From: Verrucomicrobiales bacterium | GTDB taxonomy: Bacteria; Verrucomicrobiota; Verrucomicrobiia; Verrucomicrobiales; DEV007 | Length of the DNA stretch: 42,926 nucleotides | Assembly (NCBI GenBank): GCA_013213905.1 | Contig: JABSSQ010000149.1 | Location: forward strand, 1 to 42,926 | Direction of reading: 5' to 3' | In this document: positions 39,653 through 39,841 of the stretch, piece by piece | Position numbering within the stretch: the first letter of the stretch is position 1 | Layout: the number at the start of each line of letters is the position of its first letter | Program-made: the position numbers and the translations under genes | The notes under the pieces: generated by a model | What the model saw: the letters and a program-made list of their open reading frames with translations, nothing else | Told to the model about the DNA's origin: nothing | The model's database searches: none

Positions 39653-39696
39653 GGGTTTAGTATTGATTCCTTATTCTCGGATACAGAGCGGTAGAG

Positions 39697-39712
39697 AGCA
39701 TCAAGCGTGCCA
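39697..39712 (-). promoter_or_regulatory. Sigma-54 promoter of glnB
   Basis: On the minus strand TTGGCACGCTTGATGCT. TGGCACG is perfect, GG and GC are 10 bases apart, and only two of the defined positions differ from YTGGCACGrNNNTTGCW. Predicted start near 39687, leader about 35 bases. Confidence 0.85.
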
Positions 39713-39779
39713 ACTCTTAAAATTCCTCCCGCAACCCACGTTCTATAAAGGAAGTTAAGTTTCTTCGGATTTCCCGAAC

Positions 39780-39807
39780 TTGGTAATTTCAAATTCTGTG
39801 GTAAATA
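39780..39807 (+). promoter_or_regulatory. Probable sigma-70 promoter of the NtrC-family gene
   Basis: TTGGTA (39780-39785), 16 bases, TAAATA (39802-39807). The -10 box lies inside the 17-bp dyad, which would allow autorepression. Confidence 0.45.
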
Positions 39808-39815
39808 ATTTACCA
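39799..39815. promoter_or_regulatory. 17-bp perfect dyad, likely activator binding site
   Basis: TGGTAAAT-A-ATTTACCA, a perfect palindrome in the glnB/activator intergenic region. It lies about 112-128 bases upstream of the predicted glnB start, the distance usual for NtrC-type enhancers. A partial copy of its left half, TGGTAA at 39781, is 18 bases away in direct orientation. Binding by the adjacent regulator is inference. Confidence 0.7.
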
Positions 39816-39841
39816 TCTCCTGCTAAAGAACTGACCAGTTT

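Follow-up and report, generated by a model that had tools for sequence, protein, structure and literature searches.

A conserved dyad predicted to serve an NtrC-like activator at glnB and a DUF4278-like gene in Verrucomicrobiales

Which protein reads the palindrome between a P-II gene and its divergent regulator, and how far does that control extend? The window, the whole 42,926-nt stretch of Verrucomicrobiales DNA analyzed here, carries glnB (39299–39652, minus strand), encoding a 117-aa P-II signal protein recognized by its family score (Pfam P-II, PF00543; E 7.6e-34) and its T-loop tyrosine, and representing the single P-II gene found in the window's genome. An intergenic region (39653–39841) separates glnB from a divergent gene (39842–41272, plus strand) encoding a 476-aa activator, composed according to Pfam of a receiver, a sigma-54 AAA+ domain with the GAFTGA motif, and a Fis-type HTH (HTH_8). 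Convergent to the activator gene lies one for a 240-aa histidine-kinase-like protein (41269–41991, minus strand; Pfam HATPase_c, E 3.6e-8) that retains the HKHNN motif and N box and has its DxGxG box replaced (FIRNTS). Relatives of this protein adjoin the activator in more than 20 loci, and it may be a phosphotransfer or sensor partner of the activator. The window's genome also encodes rpoN. Far from these genes, 2351–7990 encodes a 1879-aa UvrA-like protein, roughly double the normal size, in which the UvrA interaction domain is matched twice.

The glnB promoter, described earlier as near the sigma-54 consensus, proved to be so. The sequence TTGGCACGCTTGATGCT (39713–39697, minus strand) matches 12 of the 13 fixed positions of TTGGCACG-N4-TTGCW, placing the predicted start at 39686, 34 nt upstream of the ATG. 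A protein-level search across 74 genomes of the family yielded 30 loci, 29 of which allowed both genes to be placed, and in these 29 relatives the glnB promoter is of the TTGGCAY sigma-54 type, with the GG and GC elements at -24/-12, 10 bp apart, kept in 29/29. Across the order, the majority of the sampled glnB genes likewise have a sigma-54 promoter.

The main predicted operator/enhancer, TGGTAAATAATTTACCA (39799–39815), is a dyad with perfect 8-bp arms around one central base. Its center lies at -121 from the predicted glnB start and its span at about -113 to -129, agreeing to within one base with the preliminary description of a perfect 17-bp dyad about 112–128 bases upstream. The 4.96-Mb genome contains a single copy of the 17-mer, and the core TGGTAA-N5-TTACCA occurs exactly in three copies there (at glnB, at a BlaI-type gene on contig C490, and at C357:4478) and in zero to three copies per genus genome, with control counts of 0–2. 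Relaxing the search to two mismatches gave 87 sites genome-wide versus 172 for the reversed control, so such sites are uninformative. The exact dyads that overlap atpE in G024 and G029 were discounted as coding sequence. In G201, whose genome has no close activator, an exact composite match falls at the 3′ terminus of a dprA-like frame and was dismissed as coincidence.

Conservation ties the dyad to the gene pair. The comparison comprised 35 divergent glnB/activator pairs: the 29 loci, four further loci (L270, L271, L278, and L084) that include second copies, and a pair of loci (L358, L359) from a different family. The set thus covers two families of Verrucomicrobiales, one of them that of the window and its genus. 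All 35 carry TGGTAA-N5-TTACCA at 10–12 of 12 positions, including pairs at 50–55% activator identity and those of the second family (G076, G115), bearing out the expectation that the dyad is conserved upstream of glnB in relatives. Every one of the 29 real intergenic regions reaches 10/12 or better, versus 0.9% of their dinucleotide shuffles. For 23 of the 29, the center of the glnB-proximal dyad falls between -108 and -111, and the others have it at -88, -97, -121, or -131; within the window's genus, centers near -88, -97, -110, -121, and -131 therefore follow steps of about one helical turn. Those in G076 and G115 lie at -144. In position, the dyads agree with bacterial enhancer sites, which are bound at about -80 to -150 on a constant helix face.

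Forty-five related activators without a neighboring P-II gene have at most 9/12 within 400 bp upstream, and three genus members lacking the activator (G013, G014, and G032) have no dyad except one coding match in G014. Most glnB promoters sampled across the order outside the window's genus have no dyad, and G137 encodes an activator homolog (55%) with a similar helix, yet shows no dyad at glnB. Two genomes separate the genes: G066 and G072 have the activator at another location, with its own promoter free of the dyad, and glnB retains an 11/12 dyad, which argues that glnB, too, is served by the dyad.

A second, weaker predicted operator, TGCTAAAGAACTGACCA (39821–39837; 10/12), had been overlooked in the first reading and lies 22 bp from the main dyad, between the -10 region of the activator gene and its ATG. 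Relatives show a mean match of 7.4/12 at the 22-bp offset versus 1.5–4.0 at other offsets of 14–40 bp, none of the other offsets between 17 and 45 bp is enriched, and most glnB/activator loci contain the weaker copy at 22 bp. The spacing corresponds to two helical turns and therefore suggests cooperative binding.

These arrangements bear on whether the activator itself is the protein that binds. A different regulator, for example of the Crp/NtcA or BlaI type, might occupy the dyad and repress the activator, with the activator acting on glnB from another site or with no enhancer; we give this reading a slim chance. In its favor, the exact dyad on contig C490 (G000:C490:286–302, L071) overlaps the start codon of a BlaI/penicillinase-repressor gene of the same genome, which is followed by a BlaR1-type peptidase gene and lacks a sigma-54 promoter at the usual distance. 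The cyanobacterial NtcA site, GTA-N8-TAC, also resembles the GTA-N7-TAC contained in the dyad. Against it, the dyad follows the presence of the activator and its P-II neighbor, and both the 22-bp tandem spacing and the distance to the sigma-54 promoter suit an enhancer-binding protein. The dimensions, 17 bp with 6-bp half-sites, are those of the Escherichia coli NtrC box (PMC8743547), as expected for a dimer with a Fis-type HTH.

Facing the other way, the dyad is embedded in the probable sigma-70-type promoter of the activator gene (39780–39807, plus strand), which comprises TTGGTA (39780–39785), a 16-bp spacing, and an extended -10 element, TG-G-TAAATA (39799–39807), within the dyad. Read in the direction of the activator gene, the dyad is TGGTAANTT, corresponding to an extended -10 box, TG-N-TAANTT. 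Its spacer is asymmetric, with T in 25/29 at -1, T in 22/29 at 0, and A in just 12/29 at +1; a protein-binding dyad alone would not need such asymmetry, so the spacer fits an embedded promoter and bears out the overlap with the -10 box proposed at the outset. The -35 element shows no conservation among relatives. With the -10 box embedded in the dyad, autorepression of the activator is likely, as judged from the sequence. Caulobacter NtrC represses its own operon, and self-control is common in such regulators (PMC10274813).

A second gene repeats the same layout. At G000:C357:4478–4494 (L070), an exact dyad and a sigma-54 promoter, TTGGCACGGGTTATGCA, precede a 65-aa DUF4278-like frame. The arrangement recurs in G008, G023, G024, G029, and G025, giving six species including the window's (L070, L074, L075, L077, L079, and L088), with dyad centers at -143 to -145; five of the six also have a partner site 22 bp away. 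The encoded proteins measure 65–68 aa and contain three YRG motifs, and the gene is duplicated in tandem in G023 and G024. Against DUF4278 (PF14105), the genus proteins score 17.6–23.3 bits (20.4 in the window's genome, 23.3 in G008) versus a gathering threshold of 25.3, whereas a 63-aa DUF4278 protein of the second family (G076) scores 32.1, above that cut-off; its gene lies between the dyad/sigma-54 promoter and glnB. No Rfam riboswitch matches the second-target and cassette loci, where a weak match to Rfam sR23 was dismissed. YRGSEY occurs in the T-loop of P-II, and YRG[AT] recurs within the small co-regulated protein; this may be mimicry or chance, the motif being very short.

These observations weigh on another account, in which the dyad is merely the autorepressor site of the activator and its position upstream of glnB a by-product of divergence. 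The overlap with the likely activator -10 box and a spacer shaped by that promoter speak for it. It is nevertheless very improbable, since glnB in G066 and G072 keeps its dyad with the activator elsewhere and since the DUF4278-like gene carries the same tandem site and sigma-54 promoter in six species with no activator nearby.

Across the genus, amtB and the glutamine synthetase II genes (identified by translation and a weak PF00120 match) have sigma-54 promoters with no conserved dyad. The amtB of the window's genome has dyad-like sites of 10/12 and 9/12 upstream of its sigma-54 promoter (L232, positions 2104 and 2185; centers at -139 and -58), and a dyad-like site near -58 to -63 is shared by the three closest species without being a feature of the genus as a whole; amtB and glutamine synthetase were rejected as dyad targets, the weak amtB sites of the nearest species not being general. 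Separately, the glutamine synthetase II-like genes (L235, L219–L229) share a conserved sigma-54 promoter, TGGCACGGAGCTTGCT, mostly overlapped by TTGACA, which suggests dual sigma control.

The activator has the receiver, AAA+, and Fis-type HTH architecture of NtrC, and the F and T of the GAFTGA sigma-54 contact motif are present in all 35 pair activators. Its score against the NtrC model (TIGR01818), 463.3–463.6 bits, is the best in the genome and below the curated cut-off of 558.6. The C-terminal 63 residues find their best solved-structure matches in Fis-like proteins and Fis (E 7.1e-6 to 2e-3), and the NtrC DNA-binding domain matches the HTH at E 1.2 only. HTH residues S, R, T, R, and K are constant in the 33 of 33 scorable relatives; homologs whose own promoter has no dyad also share the motif SRxTxR, and the site therefore cannot be predicted from the helix alone. 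The receiver aspartate, D55 in the window protein, is D in 17/35 relatives, E in eight, and N, S, G, K, or R in the rest, and with retention in just 17/35, phosphorylation control may not be general. Neither glnA nor a full NtrB kinase was found beside the activator, its neighbors being glnB and the DxGxG-less kinase-like protein instead.

The enteric NtrC box, TGCACCAnnnTGGTGCA, is a 17-bp TGCACC-N5-GGTGCA (PMC8743547), from which the TGGTAA half-site differs, as originally noted; neither TGCACC nor GGTGCA occurs in 39653–39841. With the score, recognition sequence, and gene neighbors of NtrC all failing, we class the activator as NtrC-like, not NtrC. The reading of the activator as an ordinary NtrC orthologue, with the dyad as its general nitrogen-regulon site, is hardly tenable: the genome-best score of 463 bits, the P-II and kinase-like neighbors, and the 10/12 and 9/12 sites at its own amtB favor it, against which stand a score under 558.6, amtB and glutamine synthetase II sigma-54 promoters without a dyad conserved across the genus, an HTH nearer to Fis than to NtrC, and a phosphoacceptor that is often lost. 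The broader claim of the preliminary description, a general NtrC signal of the phylum, is not supported, given the lack of a conserved dyad at amtB, glutamine synthetase II, and most glnB genes outside the genus, together with the sub-cut-off activator. Comparison of loci makes the dyad a predicted private operator, belonging to a single activator lineage in Verrucomicrobiales; the promoters found for it are two, those of glnB and the DUF4278-like gene.

The reading that we consider highly probable from the sequences is a dyad/activator switch combining a two-site enhancer for glnB, autorepression, and a DUF4278-like second target, and the core of the earlier interpretation is well supported by the comparison. 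The activator encoded at 39842–41272 would recognize TGGTAA-N5-TTACCA, and its dimers would occupy both operators, separated by 22 bp or two helical turns. The AAA+ hexamer, via a DNA loop, would act on sigma-54 polymerase at the glnB promoter 110–130 bp away, switching on P-II synthesis. The bound dimers would also cover the extended -10 box and early transcribed region of the activator gene and repress it, so that the switch limits itself, and the second gene, for the small DUF4278-like protein, would stand under the same tandem arrangement. What the sequences show directly is the conservation, spacing, and asymmetry of the dyad, its co-occurrence with the activator, and the second target; from these we infer binding of the dyad by the activator, looping, autorepression, a nitrogen response, and input from P-II or the kinase-like protein. 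A further-reaching version is doubtful: a two-promoter nitrogen module outside cyanobacteria, made up of P-II and the DUF4278 protein, in which the latter, with three YRG[AT]-type motifs and a resemblance to the T-loop tip, might vie with P-II for partners or inhibit glutamine synthetase, and in which nitrogen state might be read partly without receiver phosphorylation, perhaps via P-II.

The predicted switch resembles the enteric NtrC (NR_I)/glnA system in its receiver-AAA+-HTH protein with GAFTGA, its sigma-54 target in nitrogen control, and its tandem 17-bp dyads, which at enteric glnA promoters lie about 90–140 bp upstream (PMC7408454). It differs in its divergence from glnB rather than a glnA-ntrB-ntrC operon, in the two promoters alone that were found, and in its TGGTAA half-site, sub-cut-off score, and receiver aspartate variable among relatives. 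The C-terminal domain is shared with Fis/HTH_8 proteins, to which the activator adds a receiver and AAA+ domain and a predicted site that is a defined dyad. In cyanobacteria, DUF4278 forms the N-terminal part of the glutamine synthetase inhibitor IF17/GifB and is tied to glutamine-riboswitch and NtcA genes (PMC6316151); the proteins here share the small size, the YRG motif, and predicted nitrogen-type control, but with sigma-54, a predicted enhancer dyad, linkage to glnB, and no Rfam riboswitch match. PirA, a small P-II-interacting cyanobacterial protein, is NtcA-repressed and rare elsewhere, one exception being a Methylacidiphilales bacterium (PMC8092223); the likeness, one of description, is that of a small protein co-regulated with nitrogen control, and the difference is NtcA repression.

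Our literature search turned up no study of sigma-54 activators in verrucomicrobial nitrogen control, and the operator sequence is probably one not described for this regulator family, with a scope narrower than first proposed and a second target added. The analysis gives a predicted operator, a tandem 22-bp layout, a regulator, and a regulon of very small size, and a single purified protein would suffice to test them all. It would also tie DUF4278 small proteins to P-II in a distant phylum via another kind of regulator and may thereby help reveal the role of DUF4278.
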